Both the position numbers and the translations under genes were made by a program. Under the pieces are notes generated by a model, which saw nothing but the letters and a program-made list of their open reading frames with translations, ran no database searches and was not told the origin of the DNA. A stretch of 64,000 nt of DNA from a virus: IMG/VR virus record IMGVR_UViG_3300030380_006811, positions 1 to 64,000 of that record; one strand, written 5' to 3'. Of the stretch, positions 5,599 to 40,574 are shown one piece after another; the first letter of the stretch is position 1, and each line of letters opens with the position of its first letter.

Positions 5599-6129
5599 AT
5601 GGCAATGTTTACAGGACAGAGAGATGTTTCTCTGGTAAGAAAGCTTAACAGAGAATTGATGGGTAATATTATTACCCAACAATGTGCATTGTATCAATTT
5701 AAATTAGAAGAAACTAAGGTTAATATCTATGGGGAAGCTGCAGAATCAAAATTTTATAATGGTCCTTTTTTATTTAATGTTTTAATAAATAGGTCAAATG
5801 AAGAATATGGTGAAAACGAAGAAGGTATTCAATTTGGACAACCTATAGAATTTTACTTTTTAAGAGCAGATTTAGTAGATGCCGATATAGTACCTGAAGT
5901 TGGAGATATTATATTATACCAAGAAGGGTACTATGGAGTACAAAGCACAGTATCAAACCAATATTTTGGGGGCAAAAACCCAGATTACCCTAATAATAAC
6001 TCAGACGGCACTCCAAACCCATTAAATCCGGGATTAGAAAAGTTTGGAAGTAATTTATCTGTTTTAGTTTCTACGTATTATATCCCAGCAGATAAAGTAG
6101 CAATATCACCTTATATAGAAAGAATGTAA
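5599..6129 (+). CDS. gp14: Neck protein, gp14-like
   Basis: A 176-residue protein one base after the gp13-like stop. It starts with the typical RKLNRELMGNIITQQCALYQFKLEETKVNIYGEA block, like the helix-then-IYGE start of gp14 relatives. A middle section (INRSNEEYGENEEGI, then EVGDIILYQEGYYGVQS) looks like a small beta-barrel. The stop codon overlaps the next start (AATGA arrangement), indicating translational coupling. The head-tail connector role is inferred from order and pattern; it is shorter than T4 gp14 (256 residues). Confidence 0.58.
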   Translation: MAMFTGQRDVSLVRKLNRELMGNIITQQCALYQFKLEETKVNIYGEAAESKFYNGPFLFNVLINRSNEEYGENEEGIQFGQPIEFYFLRADLVDADIVPEVGDIILYQEGYYGVQSTVSNQYFGGKNPDYPNNNSDGTPNPLNPGLEKFGSNLSVLVSTYYIPADKVAISPYIERM

Positions 6130-7070
6130 TGAGTAAAATTAGAAAACCTATACCAAAAACACAGCGACAATTAAGTGTTGAACAACAAAAAGCTTTTGAC
6201 ACTAGAAGAGGTAATCCTAATGCTCGTATAAACCCTAATGAATCTGAAACAGGAATACCTTTTAATAGATCTACAAAATTAAGTTATAGAGAGGATGGTG
6301 TTAAACCCTTTTCTATTGGTATACAAGATTTAGATGAAGCTGTGTTTTTTTATTTTGAAAATGTTATTAAACCTTTTGTTTATCAAAATGGAGAAAGAAG
6401 AAACGTTCCCATAATATATGGTGCCCCTGAAAGATGGAAATCTTTTCAAAGAGATGGGTATTATAGAGATAAAAAAGGTGCTATAATGTTGCCTATTATA
6501 GTATTAAAAAGAGATACTATATCAAAAGATAGATCTGTGTATAATAAGTTAGATGCTAATGGAGTAAATTTATATGGTTCATTCCAGAAAAAATATAGCC
6601 CCGATAATTTTTATAATAATTTTTCTGTATTAAATAATAAAAAACCCGTAAAAGAACATTATGCCGTTGCAGTTCCCGATTTTGTAACATTAGAATATAG
6701 TTGTCTAATACAAACTTATTACATGGAGCAATTAAATAAAATTATTGAAGCATGTGAATATGCTTCTGATGCATATTGGGGTAACCCTGAAAGATTTAAA
6801 TTTAGAGCTTTTATAGATAGCTTTACAACTGCAACAGAATTAACCACAGGCAAAGATAGATTAGTAAAAGGTACATTTAATATTAGTTTGCGTGGTTATA
6901 TTATTCCTGATACTATACAAAAGGAAATGAATTCTATTTCTAAATTTAATAGTAAATCTAAGGTTACAATTAATTTTGAAACTACAAGTAATAGTGATAA
7001 TTTTAAACCTGGTGTTCAATCTGTCCCAGCTAATAGAACATTTCCTAACGGGCAAACAAGACAAGAATAG
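6129..7070 (+). CDS. gp15: Tail completion / sheath stabiliser, gp15-like
   Basis: A 313-residue protein coupled to the gp14-like gene by a 1-base overlap. After a disordered basic N-terminus (about 55 residues) it has a globular domain with a NVPIIYGAPERWKSF block and a long C-terminal half (LEYSCLIQTYYMEQLNKIIE, FKFRAFIDSF, RLVKGTFNISLRGYIIPD). This resembles the terminator protein that caps the sheath in T4-like phages (T4 gp15 is 272 residues). A Ser/Asn-rich tail follows. The call rests mainly on gp13-gp14-gp15 order and overall pattern. An alternative is a generic tail completion protein. Confidence 0.55.
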   Translation: MSKIRKPIPKTQRQLSVEQQKAFDTRRGNPNARINPNESETGIPFNRSTKLSYREDGVKPFSIGIQDLDEAVFFYFENVIKPFVYQNGERRNVPIIYGAPERWKSFQRDGYYRDKKGAIMLPIIVLKRDTISKDRSVYNKLDANGVNLYGSFQKKYSPDNFYNNFSVLNNKKPVKEHYAVAVPDFVTLEYSCLIQTYYMEQLNKIIEACEYASDAYWGNPERFKFRAFIDSFTTATELTTGKDRLVKGTFNISLRGYIIPDTIQKEMNSISKFNSKSKVTINFETTSNSDNFKPGVQSVPANRTFPNGQTRQE

Positions 7071-7125: not shown

Positions 7126-7638
7126 ATGATATATTGGTTTACGGGTCAACCCTGTTCGGGAAAGACCGTTTTAGCAAACATGCTTAAAGAAAAATATCTT
7201 CCTCATGCTTATCGCATAGATGGAGATGAAATGAGAGAATTATTTACAAATAAAGATTATTCTATAAAAGGTAGAATAACTAATGTAGATGCTGCTCAAA
7301 AAATTGCCCATTATTTACATAATCAAGGAAAAGATGTAATTGTATCCTTAGTTTCTCCCTATTTAGATCAAAGAGAAGAATTTAAAGATATAATGAAATG
7401 GCAATTACATGAAATTTTTGTACATTATGATGTAGAAAAAGGAGCTAGAGGTAGAGAAAATTATCACGTTATGCAATTTCAAAAACCAGATTTAGATTAT
7501 ATTGATATTGATACTACTAACCAAACACCAGAAGAATCATTAAATATAATAGCTAAAAAAGCTGGTTTGGATGTAGTATATCCTAAAGGATCATTACTAA
7601 ATGAATTACCACCTTCAGATTACCAATTAGATAATTAA
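7126..7638 (+). CDS. cysC: Adenylylsulfate kinase-like P-loop kinase (CysC family)
   Basis: A 170-residue P-loop kinase. Walker A is GQPCSGKT (residues 7-14), and the family motif RIDGDEMRELF follows (about 30-40), like the LDGDxxR motif of APS kinases. In bacteria CysC phosphorylates APS to PAPS, the sulfate donor of sulfotransferases. The protein is somewhat short and its C-terminal half diverges, so another small phosphate acceptor such as a sugar phosphate or nucleotide is possible. It opens the sugar island and is followed 1 nt later by a HAD phosphatase. A DUF2061 gene, often found beside cysC, lies three genes downstream. A sulfotransferase-like protein is encoded at 54801. Confidence 0.75.
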   Translation: MIYWFTGQPCSGKTVLANMLKEKYLPHAYRIDGDEMRELFTNKDYSIKGRITNVDAAQKIAHYLHNQGKDVIVSLVSPYLDQREEFKDIMKWQLHEIFVHYDVEKGARGRENYHVMQFQKPDLDYIDIDTTNQTPEESLNIIAKKAGLDVVYPKGSLLNELPPSDYQLDN

Positions 7639-7639
7639 T

Positions 7640-7984
7640 ATGGAGAAAAAAAATACATATTTTTGTGATATAGATGGTACTATATTCAAATATCGTAAAT
7701 TTGAAACATATGAAAATGTAAAAGCTGAAGGAATAAAATCTACTATAAATTATTTAGACAAAGCAATAGAAGAGGGGCATATGGTTATTTTAACAACTGC
7801 TCGTCCTGAATATCTTAGAATGCATACCGAAATAGAATTGTATGAAAATGAAGTACCTTATCATAGATTAATTATGGGAATAGAAAGAGGACCTCGTTAT
7901 TTAATTAATGATATGGACCCAAATAAACCAGGAAAAAGAGCAATAGCAATAAATTTAGAAAGAGATGGCGGAATTAAAAGCTAA
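7640..7984 (+). CDS. Small HAD-superfamily phosphatase
   Basis: A 114-residue HAD hydrolase with the nucleophile motif CDIDGT (about residues 9-14), motif II in ILTTARPEY (about 50-58) and an acidic motif near LINDMDP (about 92-98). It is a minimal core without cap, like HADs found in capsule and sugar-nucleotide gene clusters. The substrate is unknown; a sugar phosphate is likely given the neighbours. Its 3' end overlaps the nucleotidyltransferase gene by 20 nt, so the two are probably translationally coupled and act in one pathway. Confidence 0.8.
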   Translation: MEKKNTYFCDIDGTIFKYRKFETYENVKAEGIKSTINYLDKAIEEGHMVILTTARPEYLRMHTEIELYENEVPYHRLIMGIERGPRYLINDMDPNKPGKRAIAINLERDGGIKS

Positions 7985-8366
7985 AGCAGACAAAGAAAGT
8001 TCAAGTACAGAAGTAAAATATTCATTTTTTGCTGGGAGATGGCAACCTTTACATAAGGGTCATTTATGGTTAATTAATGAAAGATTAAAAGAGGGTTATA
8101 ATGTTTGGTTAGGTATTAGAGATGTAAAACCAGATGAAAAAAATCCTTGGACTGCAGAACAGATATTAGAAATGGTTAAAGAAGGTGAATTAAAAGAACT
8201 TATAGAAGCTGGTAAAGTGTTACCAACAATTATTCCAGATATTGAATCTATTAATTACGGTAGAGGAGTAGGATATGATATTATAGAACATATCCCCCCA
8301 AAAGAGATTGGTAATATATCTGCTACTTCTATTAGGGAACAAATGAAAAAAGATGGTAAGTTATAA
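7965..8366 (+). CDS. Cytidylyltransferase-like nucleotidyltransferase
   Basis: A 133-residue HIGH-superfamily nucleotidyltransferase. The catalytic motif is HKGH within FAGRWQPLHKGH (about residues 22-33), and the second signature is ISATSIR (near 121-127). GIRDV and IPDIESINYGRGVGY are similar to NadM-type adenylyltransferases. It would join a phosphorylated small molecule to AMP or CMP with release of pyrophosphate. The first 15 residues are variable; the ATG at 7965 overlaps the HAD gene by 20 nt. The kinase, phosphatase and nucleotidyltransferase order parallels routes that activate heptoses or alditols, but the actual substrate cannot be read from the sequence. Confidence 0.75.
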   Translation: MAELKAKADKESSSTEVKYSFFAGRWQPLHKGHLWLINERLKEGYNVWLGIRDVKPDEKNPWTAEQILEMVKEGELKELIEAGKVLPTIIPDIESINYGRGVGYDIIEHIPPKEIGNISATSIREQMKKDGKL

Positions 8367-8571
8367 AAGACATATTGCAAAAACAATTTCATGGAGAATA
8401 ATAGGAACACTAGATACAATAATACTTTCAGGAATAATAACGGGTTCATGGGAGATAGGATTGGCTATTGGAGGCGTAGAAGTAATTACCAAAATGGTAC
8501 TATATTTCCTACACGAAAGGGCTTGGTATAAATTAAGTAAGTTTGGAATAAATGGTAAAAAACAAACCTAA
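8353..8571 (+). CDS. DUF2061 small membrane protein
   Basis: A 72-residue protein with two predicted membrane helices and the DUF2061 signature: a KRHIAKTISWRIIGTLDT start, a GGVEVITKMVLYFLHERAWYKL centre. DUF2061 proteins are frequent neighbours of cysC and cell-surface glycan genes; their function is unknown. The gene overlaps the nucleotidyltransferase by 14 nt and the next gene by 20 nt, so it is firmly part of this operon. Confidence 0.82.
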   Translation: MVSYKRHIAKTISWRIIGTLDTIILSGIITGSWEIGLAIGGVEVITKMVLYFLHERAWYKLSKFGINGKKQT

Positions 8572-11500
8572 AATTTTTGCCCATGGTAGTTACATTGGGA
8601 CTACAGGTTATGCTAATCATACAAGGTCTTTTTATAGAGAACTTTCCCACTATTATGATTTAAAAGTTAGAAATTTTACTATAGGCAAATCATGGGATGG
8701 TTTTAATGATGAACCCCACAATAGTGAAAACTATATTAATGATTTAGATAAAAAATTATTAGTAGAACAATCTTTATGGAATAATGATAATGAATTAAAT
8801 CACCATTCGTTTTATTCTGAATATCCTAACAATTTTAATCATAATGTAAATATTGTTTTAAATGAAACAAACCACCATTTTTTCTACCAGAATTATGATG
8901 GCCCTAAAATAGCATATAATGTTTGGGAATCAACAAGGCAACCAGAAGGATTTTTTAACCAATTAAAAACTTTTGATCAAGTTTGGGTAGCATCTAAATG
9001 GCAAAAAGAATGTACAATAGAACAAGGAATAGAAGCCGATAAAATCAAAGTAATACCCGAAGCAGTAGATGGATCAATTTTCCAACCAAATGATAATGCT
9101 ACTCTCCCAGAATATAATGATAAAAGGTTTAAGTTTGTATTATTTGGGAGATTTGATTATAGAAAAGCAACTAAAGAAATTATAGAATCTTTTTTAAAAG
9201 AATTTAATAAAGATGAACCTGTAGATTTAATAGTATCAATTGATAACCCATATGCTAAGGATAAATTTGAATCCACAGAAGATAGATTAAAACATTATAA
9301 ATTAAATGACCCCAGAATTAAAATTAAACACTTTCCTACTAGAAAAGAATATATAAAATATTTACAAAAAGGTCATGTATTTCTGTCATGTGCTCGAGCT
9401 GAAGGGTGGAATTTACCTTTAATTGAAGCTATGGCCTGTGGTACACCTTCAATATACTCTAATTGTAGCGCCCAGCTGGAATTTGCAGAAGGGTTAGGAT
9501 TACCTGTAGATATTAAGTCTATGTCAGAAGCTAAACAGGGAGAATATAGTAGCTTTTCTCAATCCTTATTAGCTGGAGAATTTTATGAACCAGACTTTGA
9601 TCATTTAAGAAAAGTAATGAGGGATGCTTATAAAAATTATAAACACCACAAAAAACAAGCATTAAAAGAATCAAAAATAATCAGAAAAAAGTTTACATGG
9701 AAAAATGCAGCTAAGTTAGCAGGTAAAGAAATAGAATCTTTACTAAATAATCTACCAAAGAATAAAATAGAAATAAGCTTTAATTTAGGACCAAAAGTAG
9801 AAGTATTAGGACATCATAATAATAATTATTTTATTGAATTTATAAATGGCGATACTAATGAAGTAATACATAGTGATACTATAAGTAATAATATGTGGAC
9901 TAAATGTAGTAAATCTTATTATATACCCTGGATAATTAAAGTAAATGGTAAAATTGTACATAGATTTAACCTTACAAATAATAAAGTTAGAATTAACTTT
10001 GAATCTAAATCTATTGGAGATACAATAGCATGGATCCCCCAAGTTTTAGAATTTTATAAAAAACATAAATGTGAAGTTGTCGTAAGCACCCACCATAATA
10101 GTTGGTTCCAAACACTACCAGAATATAAAGATTTAACTTTTATAAAACCTGGATCAGCATATGATGCTTATGTTATATATGAAATTGGTTGGTTTAGAGA
10201 TGAAGATGGTGGGTGGAAAAATTTTAATAATCACCCAACTCAAGTAAATACTATTCCTCTAATTCAAGCTGCATCTGATATTTTAGGTTTACCTTATAAA
10301 GAATTACATTATGGTATTAACTTTACCCCTAAAAAAAGGCCTATAAAAAACAAATATATTTGTATAGGTCCAAGATCAACAGCTGGGTTAAAAGAATGGC
10401 CTTATGAAAGTTGGAAAAAATTAGTAAAAAAATTACATAGTAAGGGGTATAAAGTAGTTAATCTATCCAAAGAAGGATTTAAAGGAACAAATATAATAGA
10501 TAAAAAAAATCTAAAATGGGAAGATACATTAAACTATCTGCATCATGCTGATTTATTCATAGGATTAGGCTCAGGTTTATCTTGGGTAAATTGGGTATTG
10601 GATAAACATACTATAATGATTAATAATTTTATTCCTTATGGGTATGAATTTACTCATAATTTAACTAAAATAGAAAATCATAGTGTATGTAATAATTGCT
10701 GGGTAAGTAAAGAATTAGTATTTGATGCTGGTGATTGGGATTGGTGTGGAAAACACCAAGGAACAGATTTACAACATATATGTCAAAAATCAATTACAGT
10801 TGATCAAGTTTATAATGAAGTTATAAATTACCTTTACCCAAAAAACAATAATAATTTTATATGGATAACAGGAGGTGATAAATCTTATCTTCCTATGATA
10901 AAAGTATTAGCTAAAAGTTTATTAAAATATTCTAAACATAAATTAATAGTGTATGGATTTAACTGTGATTCGAATATAGAATTGCCTAATGTTATAAACA
11001 AAAGAATAAATTATAGACCAAAACCTAAAACTCAACCTACGGGTGAACTTGATTTATTTAATAAAGATTATTCTATTTATTTTGCTAAATATTTAGCCAG
11101 CATAGATTCTTTAAACGAACCTTATGATAAATTTGCTTGGATAGATGGAGATGCCTTTGCAACAGAAAATATAGATAAATCTATAAAATATATAAATAAT
11201 TTAAAGGATTATCCTTTATTTATGACTTATTATCATCAAGATATAAATCATTGGAGAACCCATAAGGATATAAGATTAGAAGGTAATTATGGGGGCGAAT
11301 TAGCAGCATTAAAGGGTATTCAAAGAAACCCTAATGGTAAACTAATTGCTACTGGTTTTTATTTTTATGATAAACGAAGTAAATCATTTTTTGAAAAATG
11401 TATTCAATGGAATAAAGATTTAAATAAATATAGTGTAAAAATATATGCTGATGATAATGCATTTTCAGAGGAAAGAGTAGCTAATAACATCCTATGGGAA

Positions 11501-12286
11501 GAAAACAAAAAATTAGATTTGCCTATAACTTGGAATAATTATTATAGTTCTGAGGATGAAACTAAAGTTAATCCTTATTTTTTAAAACAAGGATTTGACG
11601 TAATGTATGACAAAAGCAATCTTGACCCCTATTTTATTCATGGGCCTGACCCCTCAGTAAAACAAAAAAACGCAGATATTTTAAATAATTCTTTTAAGGA
11701 TTATCAAACAACAAAACTAATGATAGTTGCTCATCCTGATGATGAATTAATTTTTGGAGGTGCAGAACTAATTAACCATGGCCCAAAATATAAAGTAGTC
11801 TGTATAACAAATAAAAATAATGAAATTAGAAGTAAAGAGTTCCAGAACGTAATGAAAGCTTTAAATATAGGCTCTTATGAAATGTGGGACTTTAAAGATT
11901 CACTTTATGATGAAAGTGAAATTTATGATTTAAATCTTTTTAAAAACTTACTATCCAAAAATTGGGAAAAAATTGTAACCCATAATCCTATAGGGGAATA
12001 TGGCCACCCTAAACATAAAAGATTATTTGAAACTATTAAAAAATTAGCTACTGAATTTTATGTTTTTAGTAAAAATTCTACAAAATTACCAAAAAATATC
12101 TTAGATAAAAAATTAAAATTATTAAAATTATATAAATCCGAACAGCCTGTTATTAATCAATTATTAACTAAAAATGGTGATTGGTTTAAAAGTAATTCTA
12201 ATACTAATTATATAGAGTATGAATCCATTACTAAGTATGATAAAAATAAAGACATAACCCCTTATATCGCATGTTATGATAAATAA
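8552..12286 (+). CDS. Four-domain glycosyltransferase: GT4 + O-heptosyltransferase-like + GT-A + PIG-L deacetylase
   Basis: A 1244-residue soluble protein. Residues about 1-400 are a GT4/GT-B glycosyltransferase (VLFGRFDYRKATKEI; ARAEGWNLPLIEAMACG near 285-300). Residues about 410-765 match the Aah/TibC-type O-heptosyltransferase pattern: SIGDTIAWIPQVLEFYKKH, a Rossmann half with GPRSTAGLKEWPYESWKKL, GLGSGLSWVNW, and a cysteine finger (CNNCW, GDWDWC, C in HICQKSI, about 713-750) like the metal-binding finger of TibC. Residues about 770-1020 form a GT-A-like domain with IDGDAF as DxD. Residues about 1050-1170 are a PIG-L/LmbE deacetylase (AHPDDE near 1059, GEYGHPKH near 1148). This suggests stepwise assembly and deacetylation of a glycan on one polypeptide. 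The acceptor is unknown; virion protein or host surface are both possible. Confidence 0.85.
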   Translation: MVKNKPKIFAHGSYIGTTGYANHTRSFYRELSHYYDLKVRNFTIGKSWDGFNDEPHNSENYINDLDKKLLVEQSLWNNDNELNHHSFYSEYPNNFNHNVNIVLNETNHHFFYQNYDGPKIAYNVWESTRQPEGFFNQLKTFDQVWVASKWQKECTIEQGIEADKIKVIPEAVDGSIFQPNDNATLPEYNDKRFKFVLFGRFDYRKATKEIIESFLKEFNKDEPVDLIVSIDNPYAKDKFESTEDRLKHYKLNDPRIKIKHFPTRKEYIKYLQKGHVFLSCARAEGWNLPLIEAMACGTPSIYSNCSAQLEFAEGLGLPVDIKSMSEAKQGEYSSFSQSLLAGEFYEPDFDHLRKVMRDAYKNYKHHKKQALKESKIIRKKFTWKNAAKLAGKEIESLLNNLPKNKIEISFNLGPKVEVLGHHNNNYFIEFINGDTNEVIHSDTISNNMWTKCSKSYYIPWIIKVNGKIVHRFNLTNNKVRINFESKSIGDTIAWIPQVLEFYKKHKCEVVVSTHHNSWFQTLPEYKDLTFIKPGSAYDAYVIYEIGWFRDEDGGWKNFNNHPTQVNTIPLIQAASDILGLPYKELHYGINFTPKKRPIKNKYICIGPRSTAGLKEWPYESWKKLVKKLHSKGYKVVNLSKEGFKGTNIIDKKNLKWEDTLNYLHHADLFIGLGSGLSWVNWVLDKHTIMINNFIPYGYEFTHNLTKIENHSVCNNCWVSKELVFDAGDWDWCGKHQGTDLQHICQKSITVDQVYNEVINYLYPKNNNNFIWITGGDKSYLPMIKVLAKSLLKYSKHKLIVYGFNCDSNIELPNVINKRINYRPKPKTQPTGELDLFNKDYSIYFAKYLASIDSLNEPYDKFAWIDGDAFATENIDKSIKYINNLKDYPLFMTYYHQDINHWRTHKDIRLEGNYGGELAALKGIQRNPNGKLIATGFYFYDKRSKSFFEKCIQWNKDLNKYSVKIYADDNAFSEERVANNILWEENKKLDLPITWNNYYSSEDETKVNPYFLKQGFDVMYDKSNLDPYFIHGPDPSVKQKNADILNNSFKDYQTTKLMIVAHPDDELIFGGAELINHGPKYKVVCITNKNNEIRSKEFQNVMKALNIGSYEMWDFKDSLYDESEIYDLNLFKNLLSKNWEKIVTHNPIGEYGHPKHKRLFETIKKLATEFYVFSKNSTKLPKNILDKKLKLLKLYKSEQPVINQLLTKNGDWFKSNSNTNYIEYESITKYDKNKDITPYIACYDK

Positions 12287-13232
12287 AAATTTAATAATTA
12301 TTTTAAGTCATTGTGACACTGAAGAAAAAATTAAGATATTAGATGATAATATTAAACAATTAAAATCTAATGGTTTTGATATACTACTTACATCTCATGT
12401 TCCTTTACCTAAAAGTATCCAATCCCAAATAGAATATTTTATTTATGATAAAAGTAATCCTATATTACATTGGCCTCAAAGGGGAATGGTATATTGGAAA
12501 ACTATTACATTAGGCCAAGAAAATTATGATTTAGTTAACATACTCCCAGACTATGGGTGGACAGCCTTTAATCAATTTTTGACTTCAAGTCATTTGGGAT
12601 TATCTTTAGATTATGACCAATACAGTTTTATTAATTATGATACTATACTTACACCTTTAATGTTTGAAACTTTAAAATCACCTCAAAGTTTTGTTACAAG
12701 TAAAGTTTATGCTAAAGAAAATGAAAAAGGTTTTCGTTTCCCTAGCTTTATGCTTAATATTCTAAATAAAGAAAATCTAAAAAAATTACTTCCTTTAATA
12801 TCACAAGAACAATATATTGATGGGTCAATTACTACAGAACATCATGATTTTAAAGATGCTGAAACTTATTTAGGGCATTTAATATCTGTATTTAATTATG
12901 AAATTTATCCCGAAGTAGTTAAGGATCAAATTATGTATATAGACTTCCAGGATGCTTTTAATTTTAATATGGATAATAATTTATTTAAAGTATTCTACCA
13001 AAGTGTTACAGATCCTAAGGTTTACAAAACAGAACCTTCTATTTTAATTTATGATATAAAAGAAAACCTTAAAGTAAATATCAATGATAAAGAAATCTTA
13101 ATAACGGACCCATTTTTTAATTTAAAATACTCAGAAATAAATTCATTTGGATATTATTTAAATGATTCGTATATTGACCTAACCTATATATTTAAGGAAA
13201 AAAGAACAACATCTATAGATACTAATGATTAA
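12276..13232 (+). CDS. Putative glycosyltransferase-like protein
   Basis: A 318-residue protein overlapping the previous gene by 11 nt. The start (NLIIILSHCDTEEKIKILDDNIKQLKSNGFDILLTSHVPLP) looks like the first Rossmann-like unit of GT-A enzymes, with a DYDQYSFINYDTILT segment (about residues 111-125) where an acidic metal motif is expected. I do not see a clear DxD, so activity is uncertain. There are no membrane segments. Context between a glycosyltransferase and sugar SDR enzymes favours a glycan-modifying role. Confidence 0.5.
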   Translation: MINKNLIIILSHCDTEEKIKILDDNIKQLKSNGFDILLTSHVPLPKSIQSQIEYFIYDKSNPILHWPQRGMVYWKTITLGQENYDLVNILPDYGWTAFNQFLTSSHLGLSLDYDQYSFINYDTILTPLMFETLKSPQSFVTSKVYAKENEKGFRFPSFMLNILNKENLKKLLPLISQEQYIDGSITTEHHDFKDAETYLGHLISVFNYEIYPEVVKDQIMYIDFQDAFNFNMDNNLFKVFYQSVTDPKVYKTEPSILIYDIKENLKVNINDKEILITDPFFNLKYSEINSFGYYLNDSYIDLTYIFKEKRTTSIDTND

Positions 13233-14157
13233 AAATAAAAAAATATTCATAACTGGAGGAGCAGGATATTTAGGTAAAAATTTAGTTAAACGTTACTATA
13301 ATGATAATGAAATAACTATTTACTCTAGAGATGAAGCCAAACATTATTATTTAAAAAAATATTTCCCAAATATAAAATGTATAATTGGAGATATTAGAAA
13401 TTTTGATTTATTAAAAAGAGCATCTATAGGTCATAACATTGGTATATTTGCTGCTTCACTAAAACAAATTAGTGCCGTAGATGAAAATGTAGAAGAAAGT
13501 GTTAAAGTGTTAATTGATGGGGCTCTTAATTCAAGGAGGGCAGCGGAAGAAAATAATTTTGAAGCTGCATGTTTTATATCGTCTGATAAATCTAGGGCTG
13601 CTACTACCTTATATGGGGCAATGAAATTTATAGCTGGCGAATCATTTATAGTAAACTCAGATAAATCTAATGTAAAATTATCTTCTGCTATATATGGAAA
13701 TGTTTTAAACTCTACAGGTAGTATAATTCCTTTAATTTGGGATTCTATTAATAAAGGATATGAATTAACTTTATACTCTGAAGAAATGACTCGATTTATG
13801 ATTGATATAGAAGATGCTATGGATTTAATTGAGTTAGGGTTAAAAGTAGATGGATATAATGTAATACCTAATTTACGTTCTTTTTTAGTTAAAGATTTAT
13901 TTGAAATATATGCAGATAAATTTGGATTAAAATACAAAAAAGGCACACCTAGAGTATCAGAAAAAACCCATGAAATAATGGTTAGTAAAGAAGAATCTCC
14001 TAGAACATTTTATAATAAAATAGATGATACTTATTATATGCATTATGAAAAAATATTTGATAATAGTTTAAATAATGAATTTAGTAGTTATGAAACAACT
14101 GTATCAAAACAAGAATTAATTAAAATTTTAAATCATTATAATTTTTTTAAACCATGA
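13225..14157 (+). CDS. Extended SDR nucleotide-sugar enzyme (PseB/FlaA1/CapD-like)
   Basis: A 310-residue short-chain dehydrogenase/reductase. The NAD(P) motif is TGGAGYLG (about residues 9-16), and GDIR follows at about 55. SSDKSRAATTLYGAMKF (about 113-129) corresponds to the STDKAxxPxxxxGATK region of UDP-GlcNAc 4,6-dehydratases and contains YxxxK. NLRSFLVKDLFEI and a C-terminal EESPRTFYNK segment also fit polysaccharide-biosynthesis SDRs. The likely reaction is dehydration or epimerisation of a UDP-sugar in the cytoplasm. The gene overlaps both neighbours by 4-8 nt. Confidence 0.78.
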   Translation: MIKNKKIFITGGAGYLGKNLVKRYYNDNEITIYSRDEAKHYYLKKYFPNIKCIIGDIRNFDLLKRASIGHNIGIFAASLKQISAVDENVEESVKVLIDGALNSRRAAEENNFEAACFISSDKSRAATTLYGAMKFIAGESFIVNSDKSNVKLSSAIYGNVLNSTGSIIPLIWDSINKGYELTLYSEEMTRFMIDIEDAMDLIELGLKVDGYNVIPNLRSFLVKDLFEIYADKFGLKYKKGTPRVSEKTHEIMVSKEESPRTFYNKIDDTYYMHYEKIFDNSLNNEFSSYETTVSKQELIKILNHYNFFKP

Positions 14158-14885
14158 AAGTATTAATATTAGGACATAAAGGGATGTTAGGTCATATGGT
14201 TCATAAATTCTTTCAAGATAAAGGAATAGAATGTGTAACTACTGACTGCAGATGGCCTTCAACTTGTTTTAAACAAGTAGTACAAAATTTTGATGGGGCT
14301 TATATTATTAATTGTATAGGAGCTATACACCAGAGATCAACAGATTTTCAAGTAAATTGGGAATTACCTAAATGGCTAGAAAATAATTCTTCAAAATATG
14401 TAGAAAATTTCACAGCTAAAATAATCCACCCAGGAACTGATTGCGAAATAGACGATGATGATTATGGTAATTCTAAAAGAATAGCTGCTGAATGGATTAA
14501 AAAAAAGTCAAAAAATACTAAGATCATTAAAACCTCTATATTAGGTCCTGAATTGAATACTAATGCAAGCTTAATGGAATGGTTTTTATCTCAACAGGAA
14601 GAAATTAATGGGTACTCAGATTGTTATTGGAATGGGAATACTACTTTAACTTGGGCCCAATATTGTCTTTATTTAATGTATCATTGGGAAAATTTACCTA
14701 TTGAAAATATATTAGAGGGAGAATGTATTTCTAAATATGAATTACTTTTGTTATTAAAAGAAATATATAATAAAAATATTACTATTAACCCCGTTAATTT
14801 TCCTTCAATAAATAAATGTTTAAAGGGAACAATAAAAACTTTACCCTTAAGAGAACAATTAGTGGCATTAAAAGAATTTTATTAA
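14154..14885 (+). CDS. SDR sugar reductase, RmlD-like
   Basis: A 243-residue SDR with an N-terminal nucleotide motif LILGHKGMLGHMV (GxxGxxG, residues 4-16), an NCIGAIHQR segment and YGNSK (YxxxK, about residue 103). It resembles RmlD-type dTDP-4-keto-sugar reductases but is shorter (typically about 290). ATGA-type overlap with the upstream dehydratase-like gene suggests the pair acts in sequence: a 4-keto sugar is made and then reduced. This is the last gene of the sugar island; the next gene restarts the tail module behind a late-type motif. Confidence 0.75.
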   Translation: MKVLILGHKGMLGHMVHKFFQDKGIECVTTDCRWPSTCFKQVVQNFDGAYIINCIGAIHQRSTDFQVNWELPKWLENNSSKYVENFTAKIIHPGTDCEIDDDDYGNSKRIAAEWIKKKSKNTKIIKTSILGPELNTNASLMEWFLSQQEEINGYSDCYWNGNTTLTWAQYCLYLMYHWENLPIENILEGECISKYELLLLLKEIYNKNITINPVNFPSINKCLKGTIKTLPLREQLVALKEFY

Positions 14886-14904: not shown

Positions 14905-15156
14905 ATGAAAAAAATAAAGTTATCACAAGAAGAGTTGCAACAATTAAAAGATTTTCAAAAGAAAGATAATGAAATTACTTTTACTTTAGGTCAAATTGAG
15001 TTAAGAAAGATTTATTTAGAAAAAGAAAAACAAAATCTTCAAACCCAATACCAAACCCTTCTTCAAAACCAAGAGAAAGTAGGCAAAGAACTACAGGAAA
15101 AATATGGAGACGGTAATATTGATCTAGAAAAGGGAGAATTCATTAGTTCAGAATAG
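14905..15156 (+). CDS. Small coiled-coil protein, unknown function
   Basis: An 83-residue Glu/Gln/Lys-rich, almost entirely helical protein; a coiled coil is likely between residues 5 and 65, followed by a KYGDGNIDLEKGEF tail. No enzymatic motif. It sits between the sugar island and the sheath gene with its own upstream late motif, which suggests a structural or assembly role. Confidence 0.6.
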   Translation: MKKIKLSQEELQQLKDFQKKDNEITFTLGQIELRKIYLEKEKQNLQTQYQTLLQNQEKVGKELQEKYGDGNIDLEKGEFISSE

Positions 15157-15214: not shown

Positions 15215-17560
15215 ATGGCAGAAACATTATTATCTCCAGGTGTATTAGCTAGAGAAAACGACCAATCATTTATCCAACAACAACCAGCAGAAGTTGGTGC
15301 AGCTATTATTGGACCAACTGCTTTAGGTCCTGTTGAAGTGCCTACATTGGTTACTTCTTTTAGTGAATACTCAGCAATCTTTGGTACTACAGTACAGAGT
15401 GCTTCAGTTGCTTATTCATATTTAACTTCATTAGCGGCAAATAATTATTTTCAAAGTGGTGGAACAAGTTTATTAGTTACTAGAGTTGTACCTGAAACAT
15501 TCACACCCGCTTCAAGTTCATTTATTCAAACAGTAGATGATTCTGCTATTAAAGCTGACGTTGGAAGTGAAGCTGATTTATTTGCAGCAGGGGTAAACAC
15601 AGGAACTACTTGGGTTGATGCAGATTACACTAGTGCTACATTTACTACGAATGGAAGCGGTACAGGAGCTACATTTAATCTTACAGCAGCTTCAAACGCT
15701 ATTACAAAAATAACAGCATCTGCAGGAGGTGAGGGTTATGCAATTGGAGAACAACTTACTTTTTCAAGTGGAAATAATGGTGGTTCCCCTTTAGTAGCAA
15801 CAGAATTATCAGCATCAGCTACGTTTTCGAATAGTGATACTTATGATGCAGCTACTATAACATCAAACCCATCTTCAACAACATCTACATCAGCAACAGG
15901 CCAAGCTTGGTCTTTAACATTTGCTGGAGGAACAGGAGCTTCATCGTTAACTACTATAACAGCTACTACAGCTGGAACTGGAGTAGTAATTGGTGACACA
16001 TTTACATGGACAGCAGCAGATTTAAATACTGCAATTGATGTTGCAGCAGGAGGGGCTTCAGCAGGAACAACAGACGTAGTACTTACGGTAGTAGCCGCGG
16101 ATTTAAATAGTAGTACTTTTGTAGTTACTTTAACCGCCGGAACTTTAGAAGATGGTGATTCACCTTTTGTACTTGAAACAATTTCAGAAGGTGAAGTAAT
16201 GAATACAGGTACAACTGAATTAACAGGAGGTGCTTTAGAAACGGGATCAGCAGAAAATGTTCGTTGGTCAATCCCTTCAGTAAATACAGCTTCAGGAACA
16301 TTTAGTTTACTAATTCGTAGAGGTGATGATAACACAAACCAACAAACAGTATTAGAACAATATAGTAATCTATCATTAGACCCTTATTCACCAAATTATA
16401 TATCAGCACAAATTGGTGATGTTACTAAAAATTTAGTTAATGAAGGAAGTGATTATTACATTCAAGAATCAGGATCTTATGCTAACTTATCAAGATATGT
16501 AAGAGTAAAATCAGTAAATTTAAAAACACCAAATTATTTTAATAATAATGGTCAAGCAAAATCAGAATTTACAGGATCTTTACCATCAGTATCTTCAGGT
16601 TCATTCAATGGAGCAGTTGGTAAAATGATAACAACAGCAGATTCTGGAAGAGTTGCTAATTTTTATGATAAAATTGGAGAAGGATCAGCATTTGATACTC
16701 AAGGATTAACTGGAAGTAGTTATGATAACGCGATTGCTTTACTAGGAAATGTAGATGAATATAAATATAATGTAATTAGTGCTCCGGGTATAATTAACTC
16801 AGTACACGCAACTCAAGCAACAAATATATTATCAAATACAATTCAAAGAGGAGATGCAATTGCAGTATTAGATTTAGTACAATATGGAAGCTCAGTATCA
16901 GCAGTATCTTCAGCAGCAGGAGCATTTGATAATAGTTATGCTGCAACATACTGGCCATGGGTTCAATTAATAGATCCTCAAACTGGAGAATTAGTATATT
17001 CACCAGCATCAACAGTAATCCCAGGAGTTTATGTATTTACAGATGCTTCAAGTGAACCATGGTTCGCTCCAGCAGGATTAACTAGAGGAGCTTTAGGACA
17101 AGTAGTTAGAGCTGAAAGAAAATTAACAGCAACAAACAGAGATACTTTATATGAAGCAAATGTTAACCCATTAGCTACTTTCCCTCAAAGTGGAGTAGTA
17201 GTATTTGGTCAAAAAACACTACAGAAAAGAGCTAGTGCTTTAGATAGAGTAAATGTTAGAAGATTATTAATTGCTCTTAAAGGATTTATTTCAGGAGTAT
17301 CTGATAACTTAGTATTTGAACAAAATACTATTGCTACTAGAAATAATTTCCTAAGTGTAGTAAACCCATATTTAGAAGGAGTACAACAAAGACAAGGATT
17401 ATTTGCATTTAAAGTTGTAATGGATGATACCAATAATACACCAACTGTAATAGATAGAAATGAGTTAGTAGGACAAATATTCTTACAACCAACTAAAACA
17501 GCTGAGTTTATTATATTAGATTTCAATGTATTACCAACTGGAGCAACTTTCCCAGCATAA
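15215..17560 (+). CDS. gp18: Contractile tail sheath protein, gp18-like, with inserted repeat domain
   Basis: A 781-residue sheath subunit, longer than T4 gp18 (659). The N-terminus (LLSPGVLARENDQSFIQQQP, AAIIGPTALGPVEVPTLVTSF) and the C-terminus (NVRRLLIALKGFISG to PTKTAEFIILDFNVLPTG) are classical sheath regions. Residues about 110-345 are a Ser/Thr/Gly/Ala-rich insertion with two related beta modules (about 145-185 and 225-265, each with a GTG.../xAITKITA...G.G..IG..xTF pattern). This insert probably protrudes from the sheath surface. The tube gene follows. Confidence 0.92.
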   Translation: MAETLLSPGVLARENDQSFIQQQPAEVGAAIIGPTALGPVEVPTLVTSFSEYSAIFGTTVQSASVAYSYLTSLAANNYFQSGGTSLLVTRVVPETFTPASSSFIQTVDDSAIKADVGSEADLFAAGVNTGTTWVDADYTSATFTTNGSGTGATFNLTAASNAITKITASAGGEGYAIGEQLTFSSGNNGGSPLVATELSASATFSNSDTYDAATITSNPSSTTSTSATGQAWSLTFAGGTGASSLTTITATTAGTGVVIGDTFTWTAADLNTAIDVAAGGASAGTTDVVLTVVAADLNSSTFVVTLTAGTLEDGDSPFVLETISEGEVMNTGTTELTGGALETGSAENVRWSIPSVNTASGTFSLLIRRGDDNTNQQTVLEQYSNLSLDPYSPNYISAQIGDVTKNLVNEGSDYYIQESGSYANLSRYVRVKSVNLKTPNYFNNNGQAKSEFTGSLPSVSSGSFNGAVGKMITTADSGRVANFYDKIGEGSAFDTQGLTGSSYDNAIALLGNVDEYKYNVISAPGIINSVHATQATNILSNTIQRGDAIAVLDLVQYGSSVSAVSSAAGAFDNSYAATYWPWVQLIDPQTGELVYSPASTVIPGVYVFTDASSEPWFAPAGLTRGALGQVVRAERKLTATNRDTLYEANVNPLATFPQSGVVVFGQKTLQKRASALDRVNVRRLLIALKGFISGVSDNLVFEQNTIATRNNFLSVVNPYLEGVQQRQGLFAFKVVMDDTNNTPTVIDRNELVGQIFLQPTKTAEFIILDFNVLPTGATFPA
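15640..16020 (+). repeat. Duplicated beta module in the tail sheath insert
   Basis: Two related segments (about 15650-15770 and 15895-16010) code for Gly/Thr/Ala-rich units with a G-x-F/W-x-L-T...I-T-x-I-T-A...G-G-x-G...I-G-(E/D)-x-(L/F)-T-(F/W) pattern. The similarity is at protein level. Confidence 0.6.
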
Positions 17561-37673: not shown

Positions 37674-40574
37674 ATGAAAAAATTATTACTATGGTTATGC
37701 TTAGCCTTACCTTTTCTAGGTATAGCCCAAGAAACAGCCCCAGTTGCCTTTAGATTAGATACTGAGCAACTTAATGTTCCCAACCCTGATCAAATGCAGG
37801 TATTTATCCAAACTAATGTTTCTAACTGGGTAGATATTCCAATGGAAGATGTTGGGGGAAATGGAATATGGAGAAAAGTTATTAATATAAATCATCCTAC
37901 AGACGAAAACATAGATGTATTTTATAGATTTAAAATTACATCCTTTGGCAATAATGGATTACCCTGGACAGCTTGGGAAGGAGGATCAAATGTAGATTTA
38001 GAAGACTGTACTATCCCACCAAGTGAATTTGGCCTCGCAGGAGGTTTGGTAAGAGATATAGTAGTACCACAAGAATTAATAGATAACGGTACTTACGTTA
38101 ATCCAACAGGAGAATATAAATTAACTCATTGTTTTAATATATGTGGTAATGCCCCTTGCCCCCCAGAACCTTGTGTAGATGGTTTAACTTCAACTAATGC
38201 TTACCAACAATGTTTAGATGGAGGTCAAGCTTTAATAGTTTTTGAATGGGGAACTGAATGTGAAATTCAATCTGTTGAATATTCTAATGTAGAGGGAGCA
38301 GGTCCATTCACATACCAAGTAGCCCCTGATGCAGTAAATTTTGGGGTTTATGCAGGTTATGGACAAATGCCTCCTAATTGGAGTGTAGAACATCAATTAA
38401 TAGTTAACTTTGTAGATGGTACCCAATCAGAGCCAATAATTTATACACCTGAACCATGTATAGAAGGCTGTACAGATCCAAATTCTGAGTCTTATAATCC
38501 ATGGGCAAACGTAGACGATGGTTCATGTTCTGGTACTACTTGTGATACAGAAGTAACAGATCAAATTACAGTAGAAATTACATTTGATAATTGGCCAAGT
38601 GAAACAGGATGGTCTTTGACAAGTGGTGTTTATGGTGTAATTGGAGAGGAACAAGATGGAACTTATGATTATAATGATATAGGTCAAACTTATACTTATA
38701 ATTTCTGTGTTGACAAAAACGCAGGATTTGAATTTATAATTACAGATACCTATGGAGATGGTTTAGCTGGTTCTACTTCAGGTGGAACTTTAGATGGTTC
38801 AGTAAGAATTTATGATTGTAATGGGGATTTAATTTGGGAATTGGATCCTGATTTTGGAGAAGTAGCTTACTCAGGTCAACAGTTTGGAGTTGAATGTGAA
38901 GGAGTAGAAGAAATTTATGGTTGTACAGACCCAGCATACCAATCTTATAACCCAGAAGCTACTATAGATGATGGTTCATGTACTGAGCTTCATATTGTAG
39001 GGTGTACAGATGAAAATTCAATTAACTACAATCCAGATGCTACAAAACAAGAACTAATTCCTGTTTGTGATTATACTTTAATAATTAAAGATGCAGCTGG
39101 AGATGGTTGGGGTAATTCGTATTTAGGTGTATCTCAAGGTGATGTTCCACTAGGTACTTATACTATGGGACCTGGAGAGTATGAACAAACATTCCCACTA
39201 CAATTATCTTCCTCTGAAGAAATTAAAGTTTATTATTTCCAAGTAGGAGGTCCACAATCAACACCTCAAGAAGTACAATTCCAAACTTGGCATAATTCAT
39301 TTATTATAGAAGGTGCAGATGGAGAAATTTTAATTAGTGAAGGAGAAAATCCATTTGAAAATAATGGACAAGGTGCTTTACAAAATTTTGAATCGCCATT
39401 CTTTATAACATATACAGCTCTACCTTATTGTGGTGATATTTGTATCCCAATAGTAGAAGGGTGTATGACTGAAGGTTCATTAAACTATAATCCTGAAGCT
39501 AACGTAGATGATGGTTCTTGTATACCTTATATTGAAGGTTGTATGAATCCATTAGCATTTAATTACAATCCAGATGCTACAGTAGATGATGGTTCATGTG
39601 AAGAAGTAGTAGTAGGATGTATGGACCCAGAATCATTTAATTACAACCCAGAAGCTAATACAGCGGGAGATTGTATTCCAGTTATAGAAGGTTGTATGAA
39701 TGAATTAGCATTTAACTATAATCCAAATGCAAATACAGCTGGAGAATGTATACCAGTAGTTCAAGGATGTACTGACCCAACTTCATTTAATTATAACCCA
39801 GATGCTAATACGGATGATGGTTCTTGTGAACCAGTAGTTTATGGCTGTACAGATCCTAATTCATTTAATTATGATCCTGAAGCAAATACAGATAATGGAT
39901 CATGTCAAGAATTTGTTTATGGGTGTATGGATCCGGAATCATTCAATTATAACCCAGAAGCAAACGTAAATCAAGTATCAGCTACAGATTTTACAAATCC
40001 TTGTATACCAATAGTATATGGATGTACAGATCCAGAATCAGTAAATTACGATCCTGAAGCAAATGTAGATAATGGTAGTTGTATTACTGCAGTAGTAGGT
40101 TGTACAGATCCTAATTCTTATAATTATGATCCAGCAGCAAATGTTTCAGATCCTGAAGCTTGTTTATATGATGCTGGTTGTATAACAGGTCCAGGTGAAC
40201 CATATTGGTTAAACGATCAATGCTATGCTTGGGTAATTGATGTAGATAATTATTGTTGTGATAACGATTGGGATCCAGTTTGTCAAGAAATGTATAATTA
40301 CTGTGAAAACGGATGGCCAGATGGATTTGATATAAATGGAATGTTTAATAGATCATTTACAAGCATTGTAGTTTATCCAAACCCAACAGATGATATTTTA
40401 AATATTGGTACTACTTTAGATGTAACTTATTCATTAACAGATGTTACTGGTAGAACTATAATTAACAATTCAAATAAAAAAACAGTTGACATGTCAGGTT
40501 TAGAATCAGGAGTTTATTTCCTAACAATAAATCATGAAGGTCAAGTATTTAATAAAAGAATAATTAAACAATAA
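37674..40574 (+). CDS. Secreted repeat protein with T9SS C-terminal sorting domain
   Basis: A 966-residue exported protein. The signal peptide (MKKLLLWLCLALPFLGIA) is followed by Gln. Two beta-rich regions come next, then at least twelve cysteine-framed repeats of GC(T/M)xPxSxNYxPxAxxDDGSC type (first near residue 263, most between about 600 and 840). The last about 75 residues are a Por_Secre_tail/T9SS sorting domain (VVYPNPTDDILNI, YSLTDVTGRTI, VDMSGLESGVYFLTI, KRIIKQ). Such proteins are translocated by the host type IX system and anchored or released at the cell surface. The repeats are common in marine Bacteroidetes secreted proteins. The role in a phage is unknown: surface masking, adhesion or superinfection exclusion are possible. 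Confidence 0.85.
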   Translation: MKKLLLWLCLALPFLGIAQETAPVAFRLDTEQLNVPNPDQMQVFIQTNVSNWVDIPMEDVGGNGIWRKVININHPTDENIDVFYRFKITSFGNNGLPWTAWEGGSNVDLEDCTIPPSEFGLAGGLVRDIVVPQELIDNGTYVNPTGEYKLTHCFNICGNAPCPPEPCVDGLTSTNAYQQCLDGGQALIVFEWGTECEIQSVEYSNVEGAGPFTYQVAPDAVNFGVYAGYGQMPPNWSVEHQLIVNFVDGTQSEPIIYTPEPCIEGCTDPNSESYNPWANVDDGSCSGTTCDTEVTDQITVEITFDNWPSETGWSLTSGVYGVIGEEQDGTYDYNDIGQTYTYNFCVDKNAGFEFIITDTYGDGLAGSTSGGTLDGSVRIYDCNGDLIWELDPDFGEVAYSGQQFGVECEGVEEIYGCTDPAYQSYNPEATIDDGSCTELHIVGCTDENSINYNPDATKQELIPVCDYTLIIKDAAGDGWGNSYLGVSQGDVPLGTYTMGPGEYEQTFPLQLSSSEEIKVYYFQVGGPQSTPQEVQFQTWHNSFIIEGADGEILISEGENPFENNGQGALQNFESPFFITYTALPYCGDICIPIVEGCMTEGSLNYNPEANVDDGSCIPYIEGCMNPLAFNYNPDATVDDGSCEEVVVGCMDPESFNYNPEANTAGDCIPVIEGCMNELAFNYNPNANTAGECIPVVQGCTDPTSFNYNPDANTDDGSCEPVVYGCTDPNSFNYDPEANTDNGSCQEFVYGCMDPESFNYNPEANVNQVSATDFTNPCIPIVYGCTDPESVNYDPEANVDNGSCITAVVGCTDPNSYNYDPAANVSDPEACLYDAGCITGPGEPYWLNDQCYAWVIDVDNYCCDNDWDPVCQEMYNYCENGWPDGFDINGMFNRSFTSIVVYPNPTDDILNIGTTLDVTYSLTDVTGRTIINNSNKKTVDMSGLESGVYFLTINHEGQVFNKRIIKQ
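37880..40160 (+). repeat. Cysteine-framed amino-acid repeats inside the T9SS-cargo gene
   Basis: At least twelve in-frame copies of a 60-66 nt unit coding GC(T/M)xPxSxNYxPxAxxDDGSC. The first is near 38466, most lie between 38920 and 40160. The copies differ at synonymous and a few variable sites, so they are old rather than recent duplications. In host proteins the unit is a probable calcium-binding surface repeat. Confidence 0.8.

Follow-up and report, generated by a model that had tools for sequence, protein, structure and literature searches.

The window analysed here, 64,000 nucleotides long, comprises positions 1 to 64,000 of the virus record IMGVR_UViG_3300030380_006811, which has 119,075 bases in total. 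On its + strand, an uninterrupted open reading frame (ORF) at 8552..12286 encodes a protein of 1244 amino acids that combines, in this order, a GT4 glycosyltransferase, a TibC-like domain, a GT-A domain with a DGD motif and a PIG-L-type de-N-acetylase. A preliminary description of the locus had proposed this four-domain reading, and it is borne out by Pfam, by TIGR04414, by the TibC structure 4rap, by a fold model and by the motifs of the single domains. Each of the four domains keeps its catalytic motifs in the homologues examined. We consider it highly probable that the predicted protein is an active glycan-building enzyme.

Architecture and occurrence of the four-domain protein

The N-terminal domain (residues 1-398; 8552..9745) belongs to the GT-B type and was assigned to GT4 by profile and motif alike. 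It matched the Pfam families Glycos_transf_1 (PF00534, E 1e-10) and Glyco_trans_1_4 (PF13692, E 8e-10), with the best stretches at residues 189-310, as well as PHROG 2170 (E 1e-30), and its E-x7-E motif at residues 284-292 is kept in 62/62 homologous domains. It is followed by the TibC-like domain (residues 401-762; 9752..10837), which is treated separately below. The C-terminal domain (residues 1049-1244; 11696..12283) was likewise identified both by its profile (PF02585, E 7e-11, residues 1056-1162) and by its zinc motifs AHPDDE and GHPxH; the HPDDE...GHPxH pattern was found in all 32 homologous PIG-L domains, and a weak profile match to MshB was also observed (E 0.003).

The third domain (residues 765-1048; 10844..11695) gave no Pfam match, and its sequence profiles found nothing among the solved structures. 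Its DGD motif is invariant in an alignment of 27 sequences (27/27), and the AlphaFold2 model (pLDDT 84.8) was placed by Foldseek next to glycogenin (GT8) and blood-group (GT6) type enzymes with E 9e-8 and a TM score of only ~0.4. As a sequence family is missing and the TM score is near 0.4, we claim only a fold for this domain, predicted to be GT8/GT6-like, and no GT family.

Sixteen further complete four-domain homologues with the same domain order, together with several partial ones, were found on independent contigs; the ORF is therefore neither a chance product nor an assembly artefact. In one homologue (L005, IMGVR_UViG_3300046167_000884) the ORF is seemingly frameshifted in the GT4 part, which yields pieces of 290 and 967 amino acids and may reflect a sequencing error or a real inactivation.

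Relatives of the TibC-like domain are encoded on at least 588 stretches in a scan of IMG/VR. In the loci that we read, the domain occurs alone (~360 amino acids), fused to GT4 (~760 amino acids) or in the four-domain form (~1240 amino acids), and in some loci GT-A and PIG-L form a separate gene. Among 50,697 deposited phage records searched, none covered at least 80 % of the window protein; TibC-like relatives were detected in Microcystis phage Mel-JY01, the sole isolate found to encode one, and in uncultured megaphages. The Mel-JY01 protein WWT39291.1, annotated as "methyltransferase FkbM" (L016, PP395634.1 4750-8430), is a different fusion and consists of GT4, a module of the type of the 318-amino-acid cassette protein described below, a methyltransferase and a TibC-like domain. 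Thus, the earlier statement that no described T4-like phage is known to have this combination holds for the exact four-domain fusion within the records searched, but not for fusions of GT4 with a TibC-like domain in general, as Mel-JY01 carries one and relatives are common in IMG/VR. A literature search for O-heptosyltransferases in connection with phages returned no relevant paper.

The TibC-like domain and its sugar donor

The TibC region matched TIGR04414 (hepto_Aah_TibC) over residues 404-757 with E 9e-60 and 202.5 bits (205 bits in a second run), which narrowly passes the curated cutoff of 200 bits. In a phmmer search against solved structures, residues 423-763 matched TibC (4rap) with E 9.4e-35, and a profile built from 14 family members retrieved the two TibC entries as sole matches (E 3.5e-60). 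The assignment therefore goes beyond the generic GT9 match, which is also present (Glyco_transf_9, E 1e-6, residues 595-689), and the domain is far closer to TibC than to the lipopolysaccharide (LPS) heptosyltransferases of TIGR02193 (E 5e-5, far below cutoff). The outcomes named in the preliminary description as speaking against it, a generic GT9 match alone, no match at all or loss of the catalytic residues, did not occur.

The published structure of TibC, an enzyme that attaches heptose to Ser in the repetitive passengers of adhesins, defines Asp-110 as the catalytic base, Thr-226, Lys-230, Trp-305 and Arg-286 as donor contacts, and residue 300 as the determinant of stereoselectivity (PMC4358343). 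It further describes an iron finger of four cysteines, which contacts the protein substrate, and a beta-hairpin thumb with Phe-265/Val-266 at its tip, which is required for the active dodecamer (PMC4358343). We compared these positions, in TibC numbering from the same source, in an alignment of 89 viral and 33 genome-collection members. Asp-110, Thr-226, Lys-230 and Trp-305 have equivalents in all 89 viral members and in the window protein, where they appear as the catalytic Asp in SIGDTIAW, the donor motif STAGLK and the Trp of GLSW. The IGDTIAW entry of the preliminary description corresponds to residues 488-494, and the C-x2-C...C...C finger to C713, C716, C732 and C744; all four cysteines are present in the window protein and in 86 of the 89 viral members.

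The retained finger also bears on a further rival, in which these enzymes would add sugars to the bases of the phage DNA, comparable to T4 and other phages with hypermodified DNA. In favour of this idea are the T4-like character of the phage and the existence of viral glycosyltransferases for DNA hypermodification, described in work cited in PMC12619734. However, the closest characterised relative acts on Ser of a protein, the TibC finger contacts a protein substrate, and the cassette lies among structural genes (no systematic search for base-hydroxylating enzymes was made), so that we regard a DNA acceptor as very improbable.

Two features of TibC are not shared. Arg-286, the adenine contact, is absent in all 89 viral members, which have T, L, V, I or S at this position (Thr in the window protein), whereas it is kept in 24 of the 33 genome-collection members. 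Secondly, the thumb segment comprises, by alignment, 18 residues in 88 viral members and 23 in one, compared to 27 in TibC, and the phage domain accordingly appears to lack the beta-hairpin needed for the active dodecamer. In a maximum-likelihood tree, the IMG/VR sequences are united in a single clade (support 100/100, stem 0.72), from which TibC, its Burkholderiaceae and Selenomonad relatives and also the Mel-JY01 sequence are excluded. A long thumb segment together with Arg-286 is kept in L020; this contig was assigned to a Winogradskyella bin, and a T4-like tail sheath gene adjoins its TibC-like gene. Both L018 and L020 are filed as contigs of bacterial metagenome-assembled genomes but look like T4-like phages, and their TibC-like gene adjoins the sheath and tube genes. 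No autotransporter gene was found beside the TibC-like enzyme; its neighbours are tail genes. Altogether, the alignment and the tree point to a glycosyltransferase that is TibC-like but may deviate from TibC in its donor and its quaternary structure.

The name O-heptosyltransferase given in the preliminary description consequently stands with regard to the family, but not with regard to the sugar. Because the adenine contact is lost, heptose is less safe as a donor than the family name suggests, and with both Arg-286 and the thumb missing in a separate phage clade it is not established; we regard it as a possible but rather unlikely donor. Synthesis of ADP-heptose by the phage itself was rejected, as a search of its record returned no homologue of gmhA or of rfaE domain II; in record G030, only a sub-cutoff nucleotidyltransferase was present. 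In a sample of 148 Flavobacteriales genomes, gmhA exceeds the cutoff in 17 and, among the matches listed, scores above 170 bits in ~47, about a third of the sample; ADP-heptose could thus be supplied by the host. On a viral protein, the label "autotransporter O-heptosyltransferase" names a fold and is no proof of donor or acceptor.

An optional cassette in the structural-gene block

The major head protein is closest to that of Flavobacterium phage immuto (57 %), and the protein encoded at 37674-40574 ends in a sorting domain of the type IX secretion system (T9SS). For these two reasons, a Bacteroidetes host is likely, and the record probably represents a T4-like phage of marine Bacteroidetes.

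Downstream of the four-domain ORF, three genes on the + strand follow. The first (12276..13232) encodes a 318-amino-acid protein with a predicted GT-A-like fold and no family assignment (pLDDT 90.4); its best Foldseek match is the histo-blood-group-type glycosyltransferase 4ayl (E 5e-6, TM 0.41), and its sequence profiles gave one weak match among solved structures (E 0.06). In Mel-JY01, the same module stands between GT4 and the methyltransferase-TibC part. The next gene (13225..14157) encodes a UDP-GlcNAc 4,6-dehydratase-like protein of the PseB/CapE/FnlA type (Polysacc_synt_2, E 5e-39), whose matches to PseB (E 3e-47) and FnlA (E 1e-32) are both below the equivalog cutoffs. The third (14154..14885) resembles RmlD-type sugar-nucleotide reductases, with a Pfam match below the gathering cutoff (E 7e-5) and the YxxxK motif present as YGNSK.

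This cassette is located between a + strand ORF at 6129..7070, neck- or head-completion-like by position, and a conserved 83-amino-acid ORF (14905..15156, + strand), which adjoins the tail sheath gene (15215..17560, + strand; PHROG 23, E 2e-61) with and without the cassette. In more than 20 TibC-negative relatives, the upstream border ORF is directly joined to the 83-amino-acid ORF and the sheath, which identifies the cassette as an optional insertion in the structural-gene block. A small block at 7126-8571, which encodes APS-kinase-like, HAD phosphatase-like and NMNAT/cytidylyltransferase-like proteins and a DUF2061 membrane protein, adjoins the cassette in some relatives and is missing in others.

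The gene content of the cassette raises the main rival to a virion-protein acceptor, namely that it remodels a surface glycan of the host (LPS, O-antigen or capsule) and thereby excludes competing phages, with the TibC-like domain acting as a GT9-type enzyme on a lipid-linked glycan. Enzymes of the GT4, PIG-L and PseB/RmlD types are usual members of surface polysaccharide pathways, and glycosyltransferases of Pelagibacter myophages were interpreted as surface-modifying by their authors (PMC7029224). The same record also holds a second glycan cluster at 64,727-73,790 (L217) with two GT4 and two GT2 genes, a sugar epimerase/dehydratase and a methyltransferase. Yet the closeness to TibC rather than to LPS heptosyltransferases, the retained iron finger and the insertion into the tail-assembly block argue against this explanation, and neither a flippase nor a membrane-spanning part could be recognised within the cassette itself. 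We therefore treat host-glycan remodelling as the main rival, though a rather unlikely one.

Acceptor candidates and comparison with known systems

The preliminary description had named the tail sheath and the T9SS-tailed protein as possible acceptors. The sheath has a variable Ser/Thr-rich insert at approximately residues 100-320, the cassette ends just before the 83-amino-acid ORF and the sheath gene in nearly all T4-like relatives, and genes of bacterial autotransporter O-heptosyltransferases (BAHT) often adjoin the gene of their substrate (PMC4358343). The Ser/Thr fraction of the insert, however, is practically the same with and without the enzyme (0.303 in 81 enzyme-positive versus 0.301 in 26 enzyme-negative sheaths, p 0.88), and the insert length does not differ significantly either (p 0.21). 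In addition, sheaths almost without an insert also co-occur with the enzyme, and Mel-JY01 has no annotated sheath in the stretch examined around its enzyme. The parity in Ser/Thr content removes the argument for the sheath, although not the sheath itself, which we consider an improbable acceptor.

The protein at 37674-40574 (966 amino acids) has a signal-like N-terminus and the T9SS sorting domain PF18962 at its C-terminus and is apparently exported via the type IX system of the host. Together with the probable Bacteroidetes host, this would fit an acceptor among secreted phage proteins or surface proteins of the host. As a general acceptor, however, the T9SS cargo was discarded: most enzyme-positive records lack such a protein, which was found in only 4 of the 21 records searched, one of them from an isolate without the enzyme. 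In the window protein, moreover, the Ser/Thr content is ordinary (0.126). Glycosylation of a secreted protein thus appears slightly less probable still than that of the sheath. An ORF similar to the 37674-40574 protein and of the same length class (969 amino acids, open frame) is present in the L001 record.

A third candidate lies outside the window in the same record, where an ORF at 117,364-119,073 (loci L127-L139, L219) resembles a collagen-like tail fibre and contains many Gly-(Ser/Thr)-(Ser/Thr) triplets. It runs off the contig end, where the repeat probably broke the assembly. Of the 58 loci of relatives whose upstream sequence extends over 3 kb or more, 21 have Gly-X-Y ORFs 0.5-6 kb upstream of the enzyme, and such ORFs never occurred downstream; the Ser/Thr fraction of their repeats is mostly 0.37-0.62. 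The distant Mel-JY01 has the same neighbourhood of enzyme and Gly-X-Y repeat; its long + strand Gly-X-Y frame overlaps a coding sequence annotated on the opposite strand (739-2298). Ser/Thr-type repeats were present in 19 of the 39 records with the enzyme and in 1 of the 11 without it (Fisher p 0.03), a co-occurrence that is no more than suggestive, because the records are related and many of them are fragments. By these counts, the collagen-like fibre is better linked to the enzyme than the sheath or the T9SS protein.

Six of the 21 loci have proline-type repeats, plus genes for 2OG-Fe(II) oxygenases and GT25-type enzymes, both of which are enzyme types known from the hydroxylation and glycosylation of collagen. 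In L110 and L113 (and within L105-L120), fusions of GT4, GT25 and 2OG-Fe(II) oxygenase stand near Gly-Pro-type fibres and resemble such a modification set.

Several observations weigh against the fibre. Within the window clade, the fibre gene and the cassette lie far apart; many contigs with the enzyme are fragments on which no fibre is visible, and the enzyme-positive W04 has none in 636 kb. The association is uncorrected for shared ancestry and includes only 11 negatives. Moreover, the TibC dodecamer recognises beta-helices, whereas the phage domains are thumbless and collagen-like fibres are not beta-helices.

Taken together, TibC as the sole structure match, the kept active-site residues, the cassette in the morphogenesis block and the co-occurrence with fibres suggest a multi-step glycan-building enzyme of the phage that modifies a virion protein during assembly, with the collagen-like fibre as the most likely acceptor. 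As a whole, this is a tentative proposal; that the acceptor is a virion protein is somewhat more probable than the opposite, while that this protein is the fibre at 117.4-119.1 kb is plausible but less probable than not. In such a pathway, the TibC-like domain would put the first sugar on Ser/Thr of a repetitive tail protein. Extension of the glycan would fall to the GT4 domain, the GT-A domain and the independent 318-amino-acid protein, with nucleotide sugars made by both host and phage. An unusual sugar, possibly a 6-deoxy amino sugar, may be supplied by the PseB/FnlA-like dehydratase together with the RmlD-like reductase, and removal of an N-acetyl group by the PIG-L domain would expose a free amine. 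We infer the protein nature of the acceptor, as opposed to lipid or DNA, the role of the fibre and the order of the steps.

The interest of the system lies in its frequency in environmental phages and in the link with collagen-like fibres. If our interpretation is right, TibC-type protein O-glycosylation is common in environmental phages and extends beyond bacterial adhesins, and its tie to repetitive tail fibres would offer a testable reason for Ser/Thr-rich Gly-X-Y fibres. More speculatively, and with less confidence than for the fibre acceptor as such, the widespread thumbless TibC-like clade in its modular chains may attach a sugar other than heptose to the collagen-like Gly-Ser/Thr-Ser tail fibres of T4-like phages from the sea by O-glycosylation. 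If true, adhesin and collagen glycosylation would have an equivalent in phages, with a "sugar-coated" fibre as its product.

Compared to known systems, the phage domain shares with TibC/Aah (BAHT; TIGR04414; PDB 4rap, 4rb4) an alignable N-terminal barrel region besides the catalytic Asp, the donor Thr/Lys/Trp and the iron finger. It differs in the missing Arg-286, in a Gly that replaces Pro/Ser-300 and in a thumb that is 9 residues shorter, and it is phage-borne, fused to other enzymes, without an autotransporter partner and in a separate clade. WWT39291.1 of Mel-JY01 likewise combines GT4 and a TibC-like domain in one polypeptide, contains the 318-amino-acid module and has a Gly-Ser/Thr repeat ORF next door, but a methyltransferase replaces GT-A/PIG-L, the thumb segment has 23 residues, and the TibC part is ~41 % identical. 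The collagen-type system (GT25, lysyl hydroxylases) is approached by those relatives that have a Gly-X-Y fibre next to a cassette with genes for GT25 and 2OG-Fe(II) oxygenases, whereas the window cassette has neither of the two and its fibre repeats are of the Ser/Thr and not of the proline type. Virion proteins of mycobacteriophages are also glycosylated, which is thought to depend on phage-encoded glycosyltransferases (Freeman et al. 2023, cited in PMC12619734). There, in contrast to the repetitive fibre proposed here, the C-termini of capsid and tail-tube proteins are modified, and the part of PMC12619734 used here reports no TibC-like domain for these phages.

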